Made by a program: the position numbers and the translations under genes. A DNA stretch of 40,341 nt, from IMG/VR virus record IMGVR_UViG_3300007512_001400, positions 1 to 40,341 of that record. The stretch is one strand, 5' to 3'. This document shows, in pieces, positions 5,105 through 37,202 of this stretch; position 1 is the first letter of the stretch; every line of letters starts with the position of its first letter. Below the pieces are notes generated by a model. It was given only the letters and a program-made list of their open reading frames with translations. It was not told the origin of the DNA and made no database searches. This stretch comes from a virus.

Positions 5105-5132
5105 TGCGCTGAAGCAGATGGAGTGAGGTCTG

Positions 5133-8100
5133 ATGGCTGACTACCCACTGACGAAGCTCGACAAGGCGCTCGATCGTCGGGGGCACTCCACCGAGGAGAA
5201 GCCTTCGTGGCGTGAGCGGCTGGCTCGACACGACAGCGTGCCCGCCTCCAAGGCGGTCCTGGCCCCCGAGGTCATCAAGGGCTTCAGCGGGTCGTGGGCG
5301 GCTGCCTTCGACCTGACCGGCTCGGTGCGTGACGAGCAGCTCGCGGGCCACCCTGCCCCGCTCCAGCGTCGCCAGAACAACCTCGGGATGCCGGGGATGC
5401 CGGAGATCAACTTCCGGCCCTACGACCACGGCACCAACCGGCACGGCAAGCACGGCCCGAGCCTGCTCGGCCACCCGATCTCCTTCGAGGTCGTCGGCCC
5501 GACCGCGAAGCACGATCTCCTGCTGCACCAGTGGTACATCTCCACCTCCGGCGGCCGGGACACGCTGCACCTCGACACCGTGACCTACCGCTCGACGGTG
5601 GGCACCCCGGACCTCCTCTCCGGCCACGCCGGGCAGGACTCGATCCCCGAGATCTACAACCTGTCGGGCGCGGTGCCGGACGGCGGGCTGTACGTCGTCA
5701 TCTCGATGACCGGCTCCCCCGGCACGGTGAGCGACAACCTGGTCGCGACCCCCGGCGAGGGTGGTGTCGGCGACGGCCTCTTCGGCGATGACGGTGCCCC
5801 TCCGGGTGCTGGTGCTCGTCGGGCCATCGTGCCCCTGACGCAGGACTCGAAGTACGAGGTCTTCCGGGTCATCAGCTTCGACGAAGGCAAGATCGAACTC
5901 GACGACAACAAGCCGCTGACGGACTACTTCGACTTCGACGTGGCGACGCAGACATGCGTCATCCGGTCGATCACGATCATCCGCCCGGCTGCGACCCGCC
6001 TGGTGGCGGTGCCGGGTTCCGGCCGCCGGGGTGCCGAGCAGACCTTCGCGTTCGTCCCGCCGAAGGAGTCCCTCAACGCCGACTACCAGCCCATCCACAC
6101 GCAGTGGACGAGCACGGGCCTGTTCGCCCCCCACGGGAGCGCGGCCGAGAAGGACAACAACGCCCCGTGGGGCTACCTCGGTCACGCGGACGACTGGGAG
6201 CAGAAGGTCGCCCTGCCCATCCCGAGGCCCCTGTTCCGGGGGCTCGGCCGCCTCCAGGGGGTCAACGGCGAAGCCGTGAACCAGATGAACCTGGGCCGGT
6301 TCCGCATCATCGTCAGCTCGGCGACGGACCACTTCGACGCCTCGGCCGACGTGGGCCGCATCGTCCACATCCACGAAGTCCGTCAGGTGCAGGACGGCAA
6401 CTGGGAGACCATCGACACGGACCCGGCCGTCCCGGTGGACCTGATCGCGAAGCCGAACCTCGACCGGCTGCTCGGCTACTACGAGATCGTGGCGGCGGGT
6501 ACGGCCGACCAGGGCCTCGGGGTGAACACCTACTACGACCTGCGGATGATCTCGCAGATCGACCCCAACCTCGGGCTGCCCTTCTACGGGCACGGCCAGT
6601 ATTTCCAGATGGCGACCGGCTCGGGTGCGGGTCAGGAAGTCAAGCTGGAGTGGACGCTCCACGACCCCATCGAGGCCCTCTGGCTGAACGACTACCTGCC
6701 CCCGTCCGACCTGGACTCGGCCAGGCTCCAGAACCTCATCGACCCGTCGTGGGTCGAGAAGAGCCTCAAGGGTCGGTCCGCCGTCGAGGCGACCAGCCAC
6801 CAGGCGATGCCCGACAAGGCCATCTTCGACACGTCGTCGAGTGGGGCCGGGGCCGCCGGGACGAACGCGAACCCCGGCTCCCTGCTCGACCTCGGCTTCC
6901 GGGTGGTGTTCTTCCCGGCGAAGGTGGACGGCAACGACGTGGTGCCGGACTTCGACCGGCCCATCGAGGGCAACGACCTGATCCTGAACCCGGACCAGGC
7001 GCAGCCGCAGTGGATCGAGGTGGACTACGCCGCCGGGCTCGTCCACCTGTCGCACCCGCCCGTCCTGGGTGGTGATCTGCTCGTCAACGCGGGCGTGCTC
7101 ACGAGCGGCGACAACCCGCGTGGCGAGATGGTGTTCTTCGCCGCCTGCGTGCCCTTCAGCCGCGAGCCGGGCCAGACCGGGGCGAACCCCCGCGTCACCA
7201 CCGGCCAGCAGTTCGGCCGGGCAGGCGACTTCTGCCTGGTGGACTCCCCGGAGGCCACGGACACCTACGGCCACCGGGTCTTCTGGCCCGTCGCCGCGAA
7301 GCTGCTCAACAGCGGCCCGCAGGAGGAGATCTACCTCGACACCCGGCTCGCGGCGGACTCGCTGCCCGCGACCGGCTTCGTGGACGTGGTGCAGGGGGAC
7401 AACGACCCCCTCGGTGCCCCCCTGTACGAGAACGCTGCGGGCGACCGGCTCTGCACCTTCGGCTACAGCCGGGTCATCTACTCGGACGCCGTGAACAACG
7501 GCGGCAACACCACCCTGACCGGCTCCTTCGGCGGTGCCGATCCCACGGCGGCGTTCAACGTCAACGCGGCGAACCCCGCGACTGCGGTTCTTCGCCGGAA
7601 CATCGTGACCCCGAACACCCCGGACGGCCGGGCGGGGACGGACTACCAGTTCGACACGACCTACGGGTGGGCCAAGCGGGGCTACGCCCTGCGGTTCAAG
7701 CACGGCACCGTCCAGGCCGAGCCGGACGGCTCGCTGACCATCTCGACGACGGACCCCCGAACGGCCGCGCACGAGGATCTGTTCGCCGACCTGTTCTCCG
7801 ACTGGCTCATCAGCGGCGGCGCGGTGACCACCTCGATGCCGGGCACGGACCTCGGGCTCGACTTCGACGAGATGGTCGTCCTCATCCAGGGCGTCCGCTC
7901 GATCATCGCGGCCCACGAGTTCACCGTCCCGGCCGTCCCCAACGACGACGCCTACGCCTACGTGGACGGCACGGACCCGAAGTGCCCGGTGCTCTCCACG
8001 AGCAGCACCCTGGCTCTGCCTGGCCCGAACGACGTGCTGCTGGGCCGCTACACCACGGACGGTGGCGGCGGGTTCATCACGTCCTACGTGGACATGCGCA

Positions 8101-30503: not shown

Positions 30504-32065
30504 AGTCCCTCCTGCGGTCCGTCTTCGTCGCCGACTCGGGCGACAACCCGGAGCTGCTGCTCCGCAACTACCAGTGGCTCAACGGCTCGGGCCTCGGCTT
30601 CGACGTGCCGGAGTACGGGGTCATCTGGGCCTTCGTGCAGGAGTTCGTGCGGGCGCACAGCCACGTCCCGAACCTGGCGACGCTGCGGTCGCACTTCGAG
30701 CACGCGAAGGAAGACACGGTCCTCGACCAGCTCAAGCAGTTGGAGGGCCTGAAGGCTCGGACGAAGGGCGACTTCCAGCGGGTGCTGGAGGACAAGGCCA
30801 ACGACCGGCGGCAGCGCATGTGGGCGGAGACGCTCAAGGACGCCTCGATCATCACTTCGACCGGCATGGAGGTGCAGCAGGGCCGGGAGAAGAAGATCCT
30901 CAAGGGGCCGATCGACTCGGCCCGGTACGTCGTCGAGAAGGCGCACGACGTGGTGGCCCCGACCATCGGCGGTCGGCTCTCCGGCGAGGTGACGAAGGAC
31001 GGAGCAGCGGTCAAGGAGGAGTACGAGCGGGTGGAGAGCGACCCGCTGGCGGGCATCGGGCAGTTCACGTTCCTCGACCAGATGGACCGGGCTCTGGCCG
31101 GGGCGAAGCGGCACGAGCTGTGGATTCACGCGGCCTTCACGGGCGGCATGAAGTCCACCTTCATGCTGAACTGGGCCTACAACCAGGCCGTCATCTTCCA
31201 GCACAACGTCCTGATCTTCAGCCTGGAGATGCCGTACAACCAGTGCCGCCGCATCCTGTACGCCATCCACTCGATGCACCCGAAGTTCCGCGAGATTCGG
31301 ATGCGGCTCGGGCTCCAGCAGGACCTCGAATCCGACGTGGGCCTGAACTACCAGGACATCCGCGACGGCACGCTCAAGGACTGGCACCCCAACGCCAAGA
31401 CCTTCTACTTCGACTACGTCATCCCCGACTTCAACGGGGAGGACGTGGTGCAGCACCCCTACCTGCCCTGCGACTACGGGAAGATCCACATCGAGGTCGC
31501 CGACCCCGACAAGGACGACTTCACCATGCACGACCTTCGGAGCATGGCCGAGGTCATCTACAGCAAGGACCCCTTCCAGATGATCTTCGTGGACCACTGC
31601 GGGCTGATGTCGCCCCGGCGGCACCGCAACAGCACCACGGAGTCCCTCAACGAGGTCATCCGCGACCTCAAGAAGCTCGCCCTCGGCTTCAACCGGGGCA
31701 TGGGCATGGCCGTCGTCGGCCTCTTCCAGATCAGCCGCGAGGGCTACAAGTCGGCCCTCAAGATGAAGGAGAAGACGGGCAAGGCGGGCTACAACCTGAC
31801 CCACCTGTCCTACGCCAACGAGGCCGAGCGGTCGGGTGACATCGTCACCTCGACCTGGATCGACGAAGACCTGAAGAAGCAGAGCCGGGTGCAGTTCAAC
31901 TGCCTCAAGTCGAGGGACCAGGCCCCCTTCGACCCCTTCATCGCTCGCGTGGAGTGGCCGTGTCGTCGGCTGCTGTCCTGCTTCGACGTGGCCCGCACGG
32001 CGGAGGAGAACGCGAAGCTCGGCGACGAGATCGACAAGGCCGCGAAGGAACTTGAGGACGACTGA
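30500..32065 (+). CDS. DnaB-like replicative helicase (521 aa)
   Basis: GTG at 30500 overlaps the preceding stop (GTGA). The N-terminal 180 residues are a helical domain. The RecA-type core has Walker A FTGGMKST (213-220), H1a FSLEMPYNQCRR (240-251), Walker B MIFVDHCGLM (361-370), H3 VVGLFQISREGYKSA (405-419) and H4-like LSYANEAERSGDIV. This is the layout of the DnaB/gp41 hexameric 5'-3' helicases, although Walker A is GGMKST rather than GxGKT. It would unwind the phage replication fork, probably loaded by the protein before it. It shares one base with the methyltransferase gene. Confidence 0.82.
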   Translation: MKSLLRSVFVADSGDNPELLLRNYQWLNGSGLGFDVPEYGVIWAFVQEFVRAHSHVPNLATLRSHFEHAKEDTVLDQLKQLEGLKARTKGDFQRVLEDKANDRRQRMWAETLKDASIITSTGMEVQQGREKKILKGPIDSARYVVEKAHDVVAPTIGGRLSGEVTKDGAAVKEEYERVESDPLAGIGQFTFLDQMDRALAGAKRHELWIHAAFTGGMKSTFMLNWAYNQAVIFQHNVLIFSLEMPYNQCRRILYAIHSMHPKFREIRMRLGLQQDLESDVGLNYQDIRDGTLKDWHPNAKTFYFDYVIPDFNGEDVVQHPYLPCDYGKIHIEVADPDKDDFTMHDLRSMAEVIYSKDPFQMIFVDHCGLMSPRRHRNSTTESLNEVIRDLKKLALGFNRGMGMAVVGLFQISREGYKSALKMKEKTGKAGYNLTHLSYANEAERSGDIVTSTWIDEDLKKQSRVQFNCLKSRDQAPFDPFIARVEWPCRRLLSCFDVARTAEENAKLGDEIDKAAKELEDD

Positions 32066-34230
32066 TGCCCGCCCTGACCGCCATCCACCTGTGCCGCAAG
32101 CCCCTCGAAGGGACCGTCGCCGCCAACGCCCTGAAGCACGGCACCGGCTCCCTGAACATCGACGGAACACGGCTCGGCGGGGGGACGACCCTCCGCACCC
32201 AGAATGAGCAGCCCAACGGCCCGGCGATGCGGGACGGAGATTGGCAGGGTGGGACGACCGGCTCGACCAAGGGCCGGTGGCCTGCAAACGTAATCCTGCA
32301 ACATCGGCAGTCTGCGTGGTATGCTCTTCGTGGGGACATCACGGAGGCCGACCATGAGCAGGCGATTGCCCACTACGGCGTTGTCGAAGCCGTGCAAGCA
32401 CTGTGGCGAGCCCATCAAGGGGATGCCGTCGCAGTTGGCGAAGCGGAAGTTCTGTTCCCGCAAGTGTGCGGGGGCTGCGGGAGCAGCAGCGGCACGCGGG
32501 AAGAGGAAGACCGAGTGGGTGAAGATCACCTGCAAACAGTGCGGCAAGGAGTTCGAGGTGACTCCGGCGTGGGCACGGAACGGACGGAGGAAGTTCTGCT
32601 CGAAGGAGTGTCATACGAAAGGCAACTACCGGCCCGACCGGACAGGGAAGCGACACAAGGACGATTCTCGGAAGAAGATGGCGGACGCTGCTACTGGCAA
32701 GTTCTTGCGCGAGAACTCATCTCAGTGGAAGGGGGGCCGCTACTACTCTGCGACGGGGTACGTCTACGTCATGGTGAGCATCCTCGATCCGGCGAGGCAG
32801 GCCCTCGCCCGGACGATGTTGAAGGGGAAGAAAAACCAGACGTATGCGCTGGAGCATCGGGTCGAAGCCGCTGCGAAGATGGGGCGGGCGATTCTCGACT
32901 CGGAGGTTGTGCATCACCTGAATGGGGTGAAGGACGACAACCGCCCCGAGAATCTGGTAGTGCAGAGCCGCAAGGGCCATACGCAAGCTCACCGGGAGAC
33001 GGAACGGGAGCTTCGACGACTGCGGAAACGGGTCAAAGAACTGGAGGCGGAGAACTCATCCTTGAGGTTGAAGCTCGTTACCTCGACGGGCTGAACCACC
33101 TGTTCCGCCACAGCACGACCGAGGGCTGCAAGCTGGTCGGCCACCACTACGAGGACTTCCTCATCAACGTGTACGCCGACAAGGGCAACTACGATGGCTA
33201 CAACGAGATGCCCGGAGCCGAGAAGGTCGAGGACATCCTCTCCGAAGGCAACGGCCAGATGGTCGAGGAGTGGGAGTGCGTCGAGGGGTGCCCGGTAGCC
33301 GAACTCGACCAGCAGAGCGGGGTGACGCGGGGCGTCGGAGGCTCCTCCTCCGGCATGTCGGCCTTCGGCCAGAACCTCGGCTGGAACCCGCACAACAACC
33401 GGCCAACCCACATCGCCCGACAGAACGACGAGGGTGGGGCCAGCCGCTACTTCAAGCAGGTCGGCAACTACGACCTGCGCGAGTACCTGCGCACGATGGC
33501 TTCGACCCCCGACAAGACGGCCTTCGTCATCGACATGGACCACTGGCCCGAAGACATCGAGACATGGGAGGACGGTTCCCTGTGTGGCCTCGTCGTCCGG
33601 GGCTCCATCAAACAGGAGCACGTTGACGAGTTCATGCGTCTCCTCCCGCCGGGCGGCCACCTCTTCCGCATCGCTTCCGAGGAGCAGCCTGCCGGACACC
33701 GAGGGGCGATTCTTCTGGAGGACGCTGGGTTCGAGATCCGCGACTGCATCCTGCTCGTTCGAGAGCCCGGCCGGTTCCACTACGTCGCCAAGGCGGGCCG
33801 CAAGGAGCGGGAGGCTGGGTGCAGTCACCTGGCGGGCAAGGCCGGTCACGAGGCCGTGGAGCGCAAGGAAGGCTCCGCCGGGGTGAACAACCCGAGGGCC
33901 GGAGCTGGTCGGACGGCGAAGCACGTCAAGAACTTCCACCCGACCGTCAAGCCCATCGGCCTGATGGAGCGGCTGCTCGGCGACGTGCCCGAGGACGCCG
34001 TGGTGCTCGATCCCTTCCTCGGCTCGGGGACGACGGCCATCGCCTGCTCGAAGACGGAGCACGAGTTCGTGGGCATCGAGCGGGAGCCGGAGTACCTCGC
34101 CATCGCCGATGCGCGTGTTCGGCACTGGGATTCTGCCCACGTCGGCTGGCGGGGAGCGACCATCGAGTCGGACCACGAGCAGCCTGCTGCGGAGGCCGAG
34201 GAGCTGGATTTGTTCGACCTGTTCGACTGA
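32065..34230 (+). CDS. DNA methyltransferase, C-terminal half (TRD, motifs X and I), carrying an HNH insertion
   Basis: The ATG shares a base with the helicase stop. Residues 1-80 begin HLCRKPLEGTVAANALKHGTG, NIDGTR and GRWPANVIL, segments that in one-piece phage N4/N6 methyltransferases lie after the DPPY-containing half. About 268 codons of unrelated sequence follow (the HNH cassette, read out of frame). The family pattern then resumes at about 346 (RHSTTEGCKLVG, CPVAELDQQSG, YVAKAGRKERE), ending with motif X HPTVKPIGLM and motif I VLDPFLGSGTTA, then EREPEYLAIADARV. DPPY is missing; it is in the gene at 35715. The frame stays open across the insert, so a single long product is possible. Residues near 480-580 hold an extra module resembling a degenerate motif IV-VIII region. 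Confidence 0.75.
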   Translation: MPALTAIHLCRKPLEGTVAANALKHGTGSLNIDGTRLGGGTTLRTQNEQPNGPAMRDGDWQGGTTGSTKGRWPANVILQHRQSAWYALRGDITEADHEQAIAHYGVVEAVQALWRAHQGDAVAVGEAEVLFPQVCGGCGSSSGTREEEDRVGEDHLQTVRQGVRGDSGVGTERTEEVLLEGVSYERQLPARPDREATQGRFSEEDGGRCYWQVLARELISVEGGPLLLCDGVRLRHGEHPRSGEAGPRPDDVEGEEKPDVCAGASGRSRCEDGAGDSRLGGCASPEWGEGRQPPRESGSAEPQGPYASSPGDGTGASTTAETGQRTGGGELILEVEARYLDGLNHLFRHSTTEGCKLVGHHYEDFLINVYADKGNYDGYNEMPGAEKVEDILSEGNGQMVEEWECVEGCPVAELDQQSGVTRGVGGSSSGMSAFGQNLGWNPHNNRPTHIARQNDEGGASRYFKQVGNYDLREYLRTMASTPDKTAFVIDMDHWPEDIETWEDGSLCGLVVRGSIKQEHVDEFMRLLPPGGHLFRIASEEQPAGHRGAILLEDAGFEIRDCILLVREPGRFHYVAKAGRKEREAGCSHLAGKAGHEAVERKEGSAGVNNPRAGAGRTAKHVKNFHPTVKPIGLMERLLGDVPEDAVVLDPFLGSGTTAIACSKTEHEFVGIEREPEYLAIADARVRHWDSAHVGWRGATIESDHEQPAAEAEELDLFDLFD
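32297..33099 (+). mobile_element. HNH homing-endonuclease cassette inserted in the methyltransferase
   Basis: Methyltransferase similarity stops after NVIL near 32296 and resumes at RHSTTEGC near 33100. The edges are uncertain by 10-20 bp. The 0.8-kb insert is almost filled by the endonuclease gene, its ribosome binding site and a possible promoter (TATGCT near 32319). It is visibly lower in GC with more A/T third positions. Too little non-coding sequence remains for a group I intron core. Confidence 0.7.
32354..33094 (+). CDS. HNH homing endonuclease with two zinc fingers (246 aa)
   Basis: I choose ATG 32354 (GGAGG six bases upstream) over ATG 32321, which has no such site. Two Cys4 fingers lie at 14-38 (CKHCG, then FCSRKC) and 60-86 (CKQCG, then FCSKEC). 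The HNH_3-type nuclease core is EHRVEAA (167-173), VVHHLNGVKDDNRPENLVV (185-203). A coiled coil follows (214-240, RELRRLRKRVKELEAENSSL). HNH endonucleases cut a specific site and spread their own gene by repair. The gene is read in a different frame from the surrounding methyltransferase. Codon use is less GC-biased than its neighbours, suggesting recent arrival. Confidence 0.88.
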   Translation: MSRRLPTTALSKPCKHCGEPIKGMPSQLAKRKFCSRKCAGAAGAAAARGKRKTEWVKITCKQCGKEFEVTPAWARNGRRKFCSKECHTKGNYRPDRTGKRHKDDSRKKMADAATGKFLRENSSQWKGGRYYSATGYVYVMVSILDPARQALARTMLKGKKNQTYALEHRVEAAAKMGRAILDSEVVHHLNGVKDDNRPENLVVQSRKGHTQAHRETERELRRLRKRVKELEAENSSLRLKLVTSTG

Positions 34231-34236
34231 CGGGCC

Positions 34237-34253
34237 GGTATCGAGGCTATGTC
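34237..34253 (+). promoter_or_regulatory. Recurrent intergenic motif (class 2)
   Basis: GGTATCGAGGCTATGTC in the 58-bp gap before the protease gene keeps the GGTA and GCTATG ends of the motif. Downstream TCCTGT (34259) and ACAGGA (34276) can pair and would partly cover the ribosome binding site. Confidence 0.35.
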
Positions 34254-34288
34254 CGTGATCCTGTAGCGACCAGCGACAGGAGACCGGG

Positions 34289-35083
34289 ATGCCGAAGTTC
34301 GACCTGCGTGGCTTCCGCGAGGAGCCGGACAGCCCGAAGCACTGGGGGTTCGAGGACAACCTGCGAGCCCGGATGGTCCGTGTGACCAGCGGCGACGTGG
34401 ACCTCCGCCCGTTCACCAGCCCGAGGCACAACCAGCGGAGCACCAGCTCGTGCGTCGCGCAGAGCACGGTGAAGGCCCTGGAGATCAAGCGCATCATGGA
34501 CAAGGGCCGTGACGCGCACATCGACCTCTCCCGCCTGGCGGTCTACTACCTGGCTCGGGAGCTGATGTTCCCGAAGGAGACGGACAAGGACGACGGGACG
34601 TACATCTCGCACGCCTTCGACGTGATGCGTCGCTTCGGCGTGCCGCCCGAGGCCGACTGGCCGTGGGACCCGGCGGCCATCTTCGAGGCCCCGTCGTGGT
34701 CGGCGATGCGGAAGGCCTACGTCAGCAAGATCGACAGCTTCTACAAGATCCGCTCGACCGGCCAGGCACGGGTGGACATGGTCGTCGAGGCCCTCCAGGC
34801 GAACAACCCGGTGGTCTTCGGGACGAACGTGGACCGGAGCTGGACCCGCTACCGGAAGGGCGACGTGCTCGACCCGGTGAGCAACGACGACCGCACCGGC
34901 CGCCACGCCACCGTGCTCGTGGGCATCAAGGACGGGCTCTTCATCGGCGAGAACTCGTGGGGCAACAACTGGGGCGACGACGGCTTCTACCTGATGGACC
35001 CGGCCACCATCGCCAGCTCGGTGACGAAGGACCTCTGGGTTCCGCAGGCCGGGTTCGAGACGTACCAGGAGCAGACCGCATGA
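34289..35083 (+). CDS. Papain-like (C1 family) cysteine peptidase (264 aa)
   Basis: ATG at 34289 follows ACAGGAGACC. The C1A layout is present: oxyanion Gln49 and nucleophile Cys55 (NQRSTSSCVAQS), His206 (GRHATVLVGI) and Asn222 in GENSWGNNWGDDGFYLM, the classic N-S-W-G-x-x-W-G motif. There is no signal peptide or pro-domain, so the enzyme is probably intracellular or virion-associated. C1-type peptidases occur in many large-phage genomes with unknown targets; candidates are prohead or host-protein processing. It overlaps the next gene by 4 bp (ATGA), linking it to an exported Cys-rich protein. Confidence 0.85.
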   Translation: MPKFDLRGFREEPDSPKHWGFEDNLRARMVRVTSGDVDLRPFTSPRHNQRSTSSCVAQSTVKALEIKRIMDKGRDAHIDLSRLAVYYLARELMFPKETDKDDGTYISHAFDVMRRFGVPPEADWPWDPAAIFEAPSWSAMRKAYVSKIDSFYKIRSTGQARVDMVVEALQANNPVVFGTNVDRSWTRYRKGDVLDPVSNDDRTGRHATVLVGIKDGLFIGENSWGNNWGDDGFYLMDPATIASSVTKDLWVPQAGFETYQEQTA

Positions 35084-35373
35084 AGCTCATCCGCACCATC
35101 CTGATGCTGACCGTGGCCTTCCTGATGCTGGGGGCCACCTGCCAGACCCGGCCGCCCCCGGTCCCCATCGAGCCGACCGACACGGCGAACTGCGCCTCGG
35201 CCTGCGCGAAGCTCCAGCACCTCGGGTGCCCCGAGGGCGACCCCCTCGAAGACGGGACCACCTGCACGAAGTTCTGCGAGGACACGCAGCAGAGCGGCCA
35301 CGCCCTCAACCCGACGTGCGTGATGGGCATGACCGCCTGCTCCGAGCTGCCTGGCTGCACCAACCCTCGCTGA
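35080..35373 (+). CDS. Exported Cys-rich small protein, possible lipoprotein (97 aa)
   Basis: ATG overlaps the peptidase stop. Residues 1-20 are a signal sequence (KLIRTILMLTVAFLMLGAT) ending before Cys21; GATC is a poor lipobox, so lipidation is uncertain. A Pro-rich spacer follows, then eight Cys (38, 42, 50, 62, 66, 80, 87, 93), enough for four disulfides. The spacing C-x3-C-x7-C and C-x3-C resembles small secreted proteins of Myxococcota. It may act in the periplasm or on the outer membrane, for example superinfection exclusion or a spanin-like role, but nothing shows which. Confidence 0.6.
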   Translation: MKLIRTILMLTVAFLMLGATCQTRPPPVPIEPTDTANCASACAKLQHLGCPEGDPLEDGTTCTKFCEDTQQSGHALNPTCVMGMTACSELPGCTNPR

Positions 35374-35383
35374 CTCCCCAGCG

Positions 35384-35400
35384 GGTAGGGTGGGTATGGC
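35384..35400 (+). promoter_or_regulatory. Recurrent intergenic motif (class 2)
   Basis: GGTAGGGTGGGTATGGC ends in the start codon of the next gene. TAGGGT lies 4 bases before the ATG, the position expected for a leaderless transcript; the purine run could instead serve as a ribosome binding site. Confidence 0.35.
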
Positions 35401-35566
35401 CCGACGCCCGCCCATGCGACCGCACAACGACTGCACGACGTGCGGCCAGCCCGTGGGTCCCAAGGGCATCAAGTTCGACCGGGGCGGCGGGTGTTGTGCC
35501 CCCTGCCTGGCGAGCTACCGGGCAACCAACCGGCCAAAGAAGAGGGGGCGACGGTGCCGAAGTTGA
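35396..35566 (+). CDS. Small zinc-ribbon protein (56 aa)
   Basis: ATG at 35396, no classical ribosome binding site apart from the purine-rich class 2 motif. Cys13, Cys16, Cys34 and Cys37 (CTTCGQPV, then CCAPCL) form a zinc ribbon; the C-terminus is basic (NRPKKRGRRCRS), suiting nucleic-acid binding. It overlaps the next gene by 13 bp. Short, but the motif content and start context make it a convincing gene. Confidence 0.6.
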   Translation: MARRPPMRPHNDCTTCGQPVGPKGIKFDRGGGCCAPCLASYRATNRPKKRGRRCRS

Positions 35567-35718
35567 TCCTGTTGCTGGTCTGCCTGTGGATGGTGGACCG
35601 AGTCGAGGGCGACTGGGCCGTGCTGGTGTCCCCGGACGGCGTGGTGAAGGACATGCTGCTCACCGATCTCCCCGAGGGGACGGACGAGGGCGACTGCCTG
35701 GAATGGGGTGAGGAGTGA
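35554..35718 (+). CDS. DUF3006-like small protein (54 aa)
   Basis: The pattern VDRVEGDWAVLV (14-25), a turn, then LPEGTDEGDCLEW (39-51) matches DUF3006, small beta-barrel proteins of unknown function. I chose GTG 35554 because AGAGGGGG precedes it; ATG 35590 would remove the short hydrophobic LILLLVCLW stretch but has no such site. Its stop overlaps the following GTG (GTGA), coupling it to the methyltransferase half. Confidence 0.65.
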   Translation: MPKLILLLVCLWMVDRVEGDWAVLVSPDGVVKDMLLTDLPEGTDEGDCLEWGEE

Positions 35719-37202
35719 GCGTCCTCCGTCTCCGCCTGGGGGACAGCTTCGAGGTTCTTGCCGAGCTGGAGGCGGGCAGCATCGGGGCGGTGGTCACGGA
35801 CCCGCCGTACCTCATCGGCTTCATGAACAAGGCGTGGGACGCCGAGACGCAGGGTGGGGAGAAGGCCGAGTGGCACCTGCGGTGGCTCAAGGAGGCCCTG
35901 CGGGTCCTCGAACCCGGCGGCATCATCAAGGTCTTCTCGGCGACCAGGACCGGGCACCGCCTGGCCGCCGCGATGGAGGAGGCCGGATTCTTGCTCGACC
36001 CGGCGGAGAGCCTCGAAGCCTGGGGCTACGGCTGTCTCACCGACGACGCCGAGATCCTGACCGAGAACGGGTGGAAGCTCGGGGTCGATGTCCAGCAAGG
36101 GGAGCGGGTGGCCTGCTGGGACTCGGAGACGGGGGCCGTCAAATTGAATGCTGTGCAGGAGGTCATCTGCAAACCCTACAAGGGTGAGATGGTGGTCTTC
36201 CGCAACGACAACACCGACCAGGTGCTCACCCCGAACCACCGAGTCTACAAGAAGCACCGCATACGCAAGATGGTCGATGGTGTCCGGGTCACGACGGAGG
36301 AGCCGGAGTGGTCCGTGCAACCAGCGGGGGAGATCAACCGCTGGAACAACATCCGACTCCCGCTAGCGGGCATCCATGACGGCCCCGGTATTGGCGGGGA
36401 GGATTGGGCGCGGCTCCTGGCCTGGCTGTGGACGGAGGGCGGTTTCGACCAACAGCCCTACGGCGTCCGCATCTACCAGTCCTCGGTCAACATGGAGCAC
36501 GTCAACGAGATCCAGGCGTTGCTCGGCCGACTGGTGCCGGACCACAAGCTCTACACCCGAGAGCGCACCTACAAGGACCGGACGTACACCGAGTTCTGCT
36601 GGTTCTTCGCGGGGGAGATGGCCCGGAAGGTGCGGAAGGCGTTGCCGGAGAAGCGGCCTACCTGGAATCTGCTCTGGGGCATGACGCAGGCGGAAAAGCG
36701 CGCCTTCGTCGATGCCGCCCTCAAGGGCGACGGGTCGTGCAACCGAGGTCGGTGGGCGTTCTACCAGAAGCACCCGGATGACCTGGTGTGGTTCCAGGCT
36801 CTCGCCCACCTGATGAACCGACAGGGGCGGATCAACTTCCGCAAGCGGGTGGTCGGCCTGCACATGAACCCGCAGACGCAGCTCCAAGGTCGCCACCTTC
36901 GGGCTGCGGTGTCCGAGCACTACGAAGGCGACGTGTGGTGTGTTCGGGTGCCAACGGGAGCCTTTGTGGCTCGGCGGGCGGACAAGGTGTTCATCACGGG
37001 CAACAGCGGCTTCCCGAAGTACCTGAACACGAGCAAGGCCATCGACCAGCAGCTCGGCAAGCAGCCGGGGGTGGTCGGCGACCCCTCGCAGATCACCGCA
37101 GCGGCGACCCTGGAGGCGGCGAAGTTCGATGGTTGGGCCACGGCCTTGAAACCGGGGTGGGAGCCCTTCATTGTGGGCCGCAAACCAGCCCCCGGAGCCT
37201 GA
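35715..37202 (+). CDS. DNA methyltransferase, N-terminal half (DPPY), with an intein (495 aa precursor)
   Basis: GTG 35715 overlaps the upstream stop; GGTGAGG precedes it. Extein 1-106 holds LRLGDSFEVL, the catalytic VTDPPYLIGFMNKAWD (27-42) and ALRVLEPGGIIKVFSATRTGHRLA. Extein 431-495 resumes with SGFPKYLNTSKAID and ends GWATALKPGWEPFIVGRKPAPGA. One-piece relatives continue at this point into RKPLEGTVAAN, the start of the gene at 32065. The protein therefore has motif IV and its surroundings but no motif X or I. After splicing it would be a 171-residue half-enzyme that probably needs the other half in trans. The DPPY motif is compatible with N4-cytosine or N6-adenine methylation. Confidence 0.8.
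   Translation: MSVLRLRLGDSFEVLAELEAGSIGAVVTDPPYLIGFMNKAWDAETQGGEKAEWHLRWLKEALRVLEPGGIIKVFSATRTGHRLAAAMEEAGFLLDPAESLEAWGYGCLTDDAEILTENGWKLGVDVQQGERVACWDSETGAVKLNAVQEVICKPYKGEMVVFRNDNTDQVLTPNHRVYKKHRIRKMVDGVRVTTEEPEWSVQPAGEINRWNNIRLPLAGIHDGPGIGGEDWARLLAWLWTEGGFDQQPYGVRIYQSSVNMEHVNEIQALLGRLVPDHKLYTRERTYKDRTYTEFCWFFAGEMARKVRKALPEKRPTWNLLWGMTQAEKRAFVDAALKGDGSCNRGRWAFYQKHPDDLVWFQALAHLMNRQGRINFRKRVVGLHMNPQTQLQGRHLRAAVSEHYEGDVWCVRVPTGAFVARRADKVFITGNSGFPKYLNTSKAIDQQLGKQPGVVGDPSQITAAATLEAAKFDGWATALKPGWEPFIVGRKPAPGA
36033..37004 (+). mobile_element. Intein with LAGLIDADG endonuclease (324 aa)
   Basis: Precursor residues Cys107 to Asn430. Block A begins CLTDDAEILTENGWKLG; block B is VLTPNHRVY (TxxH, 172-175). 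LAGLIDADG-type repeats are LLAWLWTEGGF (234-244) and RAFVDAALKGDGS (329-341). Block F/G ends CVRVPTGAFVARRA, VFITGN with Ser431 as the +1 nucleophile. The usual penultimate His is Gly (TGN). It is inserted in the conserved YG/SGFPK site of the methyltransferase. A/T-ending codons are more frequent than in the exteins, which suggests recent transfer. Confidence 0.85.

Follow-up and report, generated by a model that had tools for sequence, protein, structure and literature searches.

A beta-class amino-methyltransferase divided between two genes

The virus record IMGVR_UViG_3300007512_001400 of IMG/VR (40,341 bases, the whole of which was analysed and is called the window here) encodes one beta-class amino-methyltransferase as two separate genes, split exactly at an RKP junction. 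Four parts could be distinguished: the catalytic half with the DPPY motif (N), a target recognition module (T), a degenerate N-like domain (P), and the S-adenosylmethionine (AdoMet) half (XI). N occupies the downstream gene, while T is joined to P-XI in the upstream C-half gene (32065–34230). Comparison with the Pfam profile N6_N4_Mtase (PF01555) revealed profile positions 3–73 in the N-half and 159–219 in the C-half, so that the motifs are divided between two chains. DPPY was found in the first, motif X (HYVAKAG) and motif I (DPFLGSGTT) in the second, and N contained neither motif X nor motif I. A preliminary description of this DNA had proposed complementary halves of a split methyltransferase, placed in reverse order about 1.5 kb apart with four genes between, and this is what was observed: the gap between the two genes measures 1,484 bp and holds four small open reading frames (ORFs). 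When the joined extein was searched against databases, it aligned end to end with one-piece phage methyltransferase genes. No second copy of either half was found in the window, although this record probably covers just part of a larger genome.

In beta-class enzymes the motifs normally run in the order IV–VIII, target recognition, X and I. The window contains DPPY (motif IV), motif X and motif I but not a single chain in that order, and because its motifs lie on two genes in reverse order, the enzyme is, judged by sequence, a split derivative rather than an ordinary beta-class member. It does not belong to the C5-cytosine class, as it has an amino-methyltransferase profile and DPPY. At the break, N ends 5 residues past GRK (WEPFIVGRKPAPGA) and T begins 10 residues before RKP (MPALTAIHLCRKPLEGTVAAN). 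No split-intein halves were present there, nor was there room for them, and trans-splicing by a split intein is therefore unlikely. The products of the two genes most likely act together after translation.

Distribution and arrangement of the modules in related phages

The modules were surveyed in about 140 loci, in which the relative loci and records carry L-numbers as labels. One-piece N-T-XI genes, unbroken across the RKP junction as the preliminary description had stated, were found as 113 ORFs in 110 loci. Split modules were also present in 14 further metagenomic phage records. Among the nearest relatives, where identity in the best segment was 59% for L003 and 46% for L004/L005, the C-half gene stood upstream of the N gene as in the window. 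The two genes of L005 are direct neighbours that overlap as TGATG, and the C-half there carries no HNH insert. A scan for relatives by alignment of the upstream helicase yielded 30 contigs, mostly from large phages and up to 536 kb long. With hidden Markov models (HMMs) of the modules, the split system was detected in the majority of the closer relatives within this helicase-defined clade.

The module boundaries were exact, with N ending in WEPFLVGRKP, T reaching from M-x-VITxARKPLxG to GGASRFFKQ, and XI starting at HYVAKA. T often stood alone as a gene in relatives. Free-standing T genes encoded 130–225 residues and free-standing N genes about 180–270 residues without an intein, and these genes mostly had overlapping starts and stops. 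N, T and P-XI form three genes in L140 and L141, while L129 shows the order P-XI, T, peptidase, lipoprotein, N. Copy numbers differed between the modules: about five T could be counted in L133, seven T with one N and one P-XI in L127, and six N and six T with one P-XI in L144. Counted over whole records, P-XI occurred once in each of 15, the window among them, and every one of these also had N and T. No other XI of the same family was found in these records, where further matches were motif-I-only and belonged to other methyltransferases. Two T modules are fused in tandem ahead of P-XI in one ORF at L003:6019–8034.

The T module consists of four conserved anchors with three hypervariable stretches between them. 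Between L140 and L141 the end of T is nearly unchanged, while its middle differs in length and sequence, a pattern that resembles recombining specificity proteins. T alone produced no Pfam or NCBIfam match.

A degenerate catalytic-like domain and structure predictions

The preliminary description had overlooked an extra domain, P, which follows T in the C-half and precedes motif X. A tblastn search with P matched one-piece relatives in their catalytic N region and not in the region before motif X, and profile-profile comparison of N against P-XI gave an E value of 4e-5. P retains the N-like pattern R-x-L-x-PG-x-H ... EDxGFEIRD, while DPPY was absent from 11 of 11 aligned rows and from the P of other loci. 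P directly precedes XI in 15 loci, as P-XI or T-P-XI, and is always fused to the AdoMet half; XI in these fusions retains motif I. Across the survey, P never occurred with an intact N in one ORF, nor in any one-piece relative. No P domain was seen in the GenBank phages examined, a survey in which the genes around phrog_6025 and phrog_3008 were not inspected individually. Candidates in Lactococcus phage AM9 and Staphylococcus phage phiRNIID were rejected as their DPPY is intact, and those in the uncultured phage LR745208 and the marine virus AG-345-F15 as the genes are one-piece.

The AlphaFold model of L127 N (predicted local distance difference test, pLDDT, 68) matched the N-terminal half of CcrM, residues 4–143 (VIA Z 8.4; Foldseek E 6e-7 to 6pbd). 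In the L133 T-P-XI model, XI matched the AdoMet half of methyltransferases, including CcrM 168–257 (Z 6.2, 37% identity), and P matched the other half of other methyltransferases, the two not appearing as a joint fold. Dimers can be formed by beta-class enzymes of known structure, and the interface of CcrM includes its residues 113–134, which lie in the N-half (PMC6787082). Since the interface lies there, the N-like P may offer a reasonable partner surface for N.

Proposed assembly and its alternatives

The sequences show that in one lineage of large phages a beta-class amino-methyltransferase has been divided into N, T and P-XI. We consider it fairly probable that one shared AdoMet-binding core is completed in trans by N and an exchangeable T. 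N, T and P-XI would assemble without covalent joining. The active enzyme would need both N and P-XI, because N has no AdoMet site and P-XI no DPPY. In the most economical geometry, XI would pair with N in trans, completing the Rossmann sheet and the active site, while P would serve as an inactive partner at the usual beta-class dimer interface or keep XI stable until N arrives. T would select the DNA sequence. There is laboratory precedent for such non-covalent assembly: when a C5-methyltransferase was divided between motif VIII and the recognition domain and its fragments were expressed separately, they reassembled in vivo (PMC3404938). We put at about an even chance the further proposal of a combinatorial enzyme, in which one P-XI core is shared by several N and T and specificities are added by duplicating a T gene of 150–220 residues rather than the whole enzyme. 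As T would choose the DNA sequence, such a core, whose use by several T (and N) is suggested by their copy numbers, would provide for more than one specificity of methylation, and the phage DNA could plausibly be shielded from many restriction enzymes.

Several observations weigh against assembly in trans. Confidence in the L133 T-P-XI model is low (pLDDT 58.8; predicted template modelling score 0.52), with P as its best defined part (about 78–93), and P-XI could form a complete fold by itself, leaving no room for N. The role of T in target recognition is assigned from where it lies in the one-piece gene and from the way it varies. At L136:12789–16578, six stand-alone T genes with 35–56% identity among them follow one another in tandem, yet N or P-XI was not detected in that 152-kb fragment. 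A stop codon also lies just after DPPY in the N gene of five relatives.

A rival reading is a pseudo-methyltransferase heterodimer in the style of METTL3-METTL14 or MTA1-MTA9, in which P-XI folds alone and binds AdoMet, N lies beside it, and AdoMet is used across the interface instead of in one completed sheet. P-XI does hold both halves in canonical order, and Foldseek aligned the T-P-XI model over 225–290 columns of beta-class enzymes. However, the root-mean-square deviation across P and XI was 14–20 Å, and the model does not show P and XI packed into one fold. Given its low confidence and the separate matching of its pieces to two fold halves, the model appears to speak neither for nor against such packing. 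METTL3 and MTA1 have an AdoMet-binding part of their own, unlike N, which lacks any. Although the MTA1 complex, in which MTA1 joins MTA9, p1 and p2 (PMC9852454), offers a parallel, we regard the heterodimer as rather unlikely for the window enzyme.

The stop codons and the T-only array would also suit decaying remnants of one-piece methyltransferases with no joint function. However, every N retains DPPY, which is invariant across the N alignment, and the set of modules is conserved over deep divergence. Pairwise ratios of nonsynonymous to synonymous substitution rates (dN/dS, Nei-Gojobori) were 0.07–0.27 for N pieces, 0.16–0.30 for P-XI and 0.17–0.24 for most T; the first part of T in the window had 0.41. 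The low values extended to the sequence before and after the stop that follows DPPY. Purifying selection thus acts on all modules, and decay appears very improbable.

The stop itself follows DPPY[G/E] and results from an insertion of 8–14 nt (L003:8945–8985, L128:18213–18253, L129:14779–14815, L130:12232–12265 and L133:17971–18010). In 4 of these 5 relatives the -1 frame holds the rest of N, and the sequence looks conserved before the insertion as well as after it; the window has no such stop. Programmed frameshifting, readthrough, or two peptides with a restart at the conserved FM(G) could be responsible. No signal of RNA structure was found downstream of the stop in the five relatives (z-scores -1.1 to 0.4).

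Inserts, gene order and the origin of the split

Both genes carry an insert. The junctions of the insert in N (GYG^C...TGN^SGF) place C as its first residue and N as its last, followed by S, as in inteins. Its exact empty site could be found in the N genes of L127, L140 and L144, and homologous inserts in L129, L130 and L133. The penultimate His is absent (TGN), Gly standing there in all intein-bearing N relatives seen. The insert thus appears intein-like, with the hallmarks present except that His. The insert in T holds an HNH gene and is in frame, and a simulation based on codon usage gave a chance of about 2% for an open host frame. The T-P-XI chain may for this reason be translated through the insert. 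An intron of group I or II enclosing the HNH gene was rejected, as no Rfam match was obtained in the window up to E 1 besides a sub-threshold match to the snoRNA family sR58 (5105–5153, E 0.36), which is probably due to chance. HNH ORFs that lie within an open host ORF, either a T module or an N intein, and use its +1 frame were observed in the window at 32305–33111, at L005:8050–8823 and at L003:9542–10354; in the simulation for L005, the frame was open by chance in 0 of 5000 runs. Large in-frame intein-like insertions occur in the XI half at L128:11961–13805 and L130:9381–11663, and the DnaB-like helicase upstream of the methyltransferase at L005:2157–5048 carries an intein-like insert after NEAER.

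The coordinates of the window features are collected in Table 1.

Table 1. Features of the split methyltransferase locus in the window
Feature	Position	Strand	Evidence
T module, first part, MPALTAIHLCRKPLEGTVAAN...GRWPANVILQH	32065..32304	+	HMM T positions 1-93, E 6e-34; alignment to further T modules
Insert of 807 nt in T module, bearing HNH gene, with host frame open over its full length	32305..33111	+	Comparison with uninterrupted T modules
HNH_3 endonuclease ORF, +1 frame relative to T-P-XI gene, GGAGG ahead of ATG	32354..33094	+	PF13392 E 6e-10; phrog_1271 E 8e-21
T module, second part, STTEGCKLVG...GGASRYFKQV	33112..33462	+	HMM T positions 84-193, E 3e-39
P, degenerate catalytic-half copy, GLVVRGSI in place of DPPY	33463..33777	+	tblastn; profile-profile comparison; alignment
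XI, motif X HYVAKAG and motif I DPFLGSGTT	33778..34230	+	PF01555 positions 159-219, E 4e-16; HMM XI E 3e-87
Intervening gene, papain-family peptidase C1	34289..35083	+	PF00112 E 5e-14; L013/L129 have a similar gene between core and N
Intervening gene, small lipoprotein-like protein	35080..35373	+	Sequence reading and ORFs; similar one in L013/L129
Intervening small Cys-rich ORF	35396..35566	+	Sequence reading
Intervening DUF3006 ORF	35554..35718	+	PF11213 E 6e-9
N gene, catalytic half with DPPY (35799), end ...WEPFIVGRKPAPGA	35715..37202	+	PF01555 positions 3-73, E 4e-9; HMM N
Intein-like insert in N, LAGLIDADG-like motifs LLAWLWTEGGF and FVDAALKGDGS	36033..37004	+	Empty site in relatives

The preliminary description had reported a homing element in each gene and had suggested a homing-driven gene in pieces; in this reading such elements would have broken the gene and driven the swap of its halves. 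The presence of the two elements held, with the limits of the HNH insert redrawn to those in the table. Homing as the driver would fit the intein in N and the HNH gene in T of the window, the commonness of inteins in these modules, and a gene of L003 (8041–8895, minus strand) that resembles an endonuclease, has Cys-rich motifs and separates the core from N on the opposite strand. However, L134, L140, L141 and L144 are split without any intein or HNH gene in their modules, and the elements sit inside modules, not at the breaks; for these reasons homing probably did not drive the split. The swap is, moreover, nested within N-first lineages, and we find this explanation very hard to sustain. An assembly artefact joining two genomes, conceivable for a 40-kb metagenomic contig, is refuted by the recurrence of the window-like arrangement in the independent contigs L003, L005, L129 and L128 and by identical contigs from separate assemblies.

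Phylogenetic analysis placed the split XI on one side of a branch supported at 92/91, over few alignment columns, and 21 of 22 split-clade N rows within one branch at 99; the tree of the T family gave no resolved branching order. From the XI and N groupings, the split probably arose once. In the helicase tree, a subclade (94; the system was not found in two of its records) unites the phages whose core precedes N, and it is nested among phages in which N comes first. N, T, P-XI follows the order of the one-piece gene, and basal relatives have N first. The swapped order of the window is thus probably a later, derived relocation. The "two swapped halves" of the preliminary description do lie as two genes in reverse order, but the picture is too simple: the modules are three (N, T and P-XI), the swap looks like a later relocation inside one subclade, and the C-half has P in addition. 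In evolution, the split and the gain of P stand out as the main events. N and T both have a short strand at RKP, as would be expected if both pieces came from duplicated copies.

Comparison with known systems and implications

Parts of this system are already known, as its pieces fall in PF01555, phrog_67, phrog_6025 and phrog_3008, and two-chain C5 and permuted enzymes have been described. Existing families cover pieces of the same enzyme, phrog_6025 (192 aa) being N-like and phrog_3008 (244 aa) corresponding to T plus XI. One-piece phage enzymes (Mycobacterium phage Slagathor gp61, WGH20261.1; phrog_67) share the order N, T, X-I and the RKP junction, but they are one chain without P, with an intact DPPY in the AdoMet-binding chain. 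The beta-class homodimer CcrM (PDB 6pbd) corresponds to N at residues 4–143 and to XI at 168–257, but is a single polypeptide with no separate T or P. In M.AquI and M.EcoHK31I (PMC3404938), the conserved motifs of one enzyme are likewise shared between two polypeptides; however, these belong to the 5-methylcytosine class, and no extra catalytic-like domain or multiplied specificity genes are described for them. Permuted enzymes of the M.BssHII type (PMC5944983), for which a duplication model exists, start anew at a point past motif VIII and ahead of the recognition domain, as T does, but remain a single chain, whereas the split system comprises separate genes in several orders.

Type I HsdM and HsdS also combine a separate, exchangeable specificity subunit with a shared modification core, but HsdM is a complete methyltransferase, whereas the split system has catalysis and AdoMet binding on different chains; the searches made revealed no link between T and HsdS. 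MTA1-MTA9-p1-p2 (PMC9852454) and METTL3-METTL14 are multi-subunit adenine methyltransferases with a degenerate partner, comparable to P without DPPY. They differ in that the catalytic subunit itself binds AdoMet and in having no exchangeable specificity genes. A literature search, thin on subscription journals, yielded no report of a shared core with a motif-less catalytic-like domain and multiplied recognition genes.

If the proposed division is true, the catalytic centre, the cofactor site and the specificity of one enzyme would reside on different polypeptides, with the specificity genes multiplied around one core. Such an arrangement would give phages a cheap route to widen their methylation repertoire and would represent a natural system for swapping methylation specificities. 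It would also be a living intermediate for the origin of the alpha, beta, gamma and permuted motif orders through duplication, degeneration and splitting.

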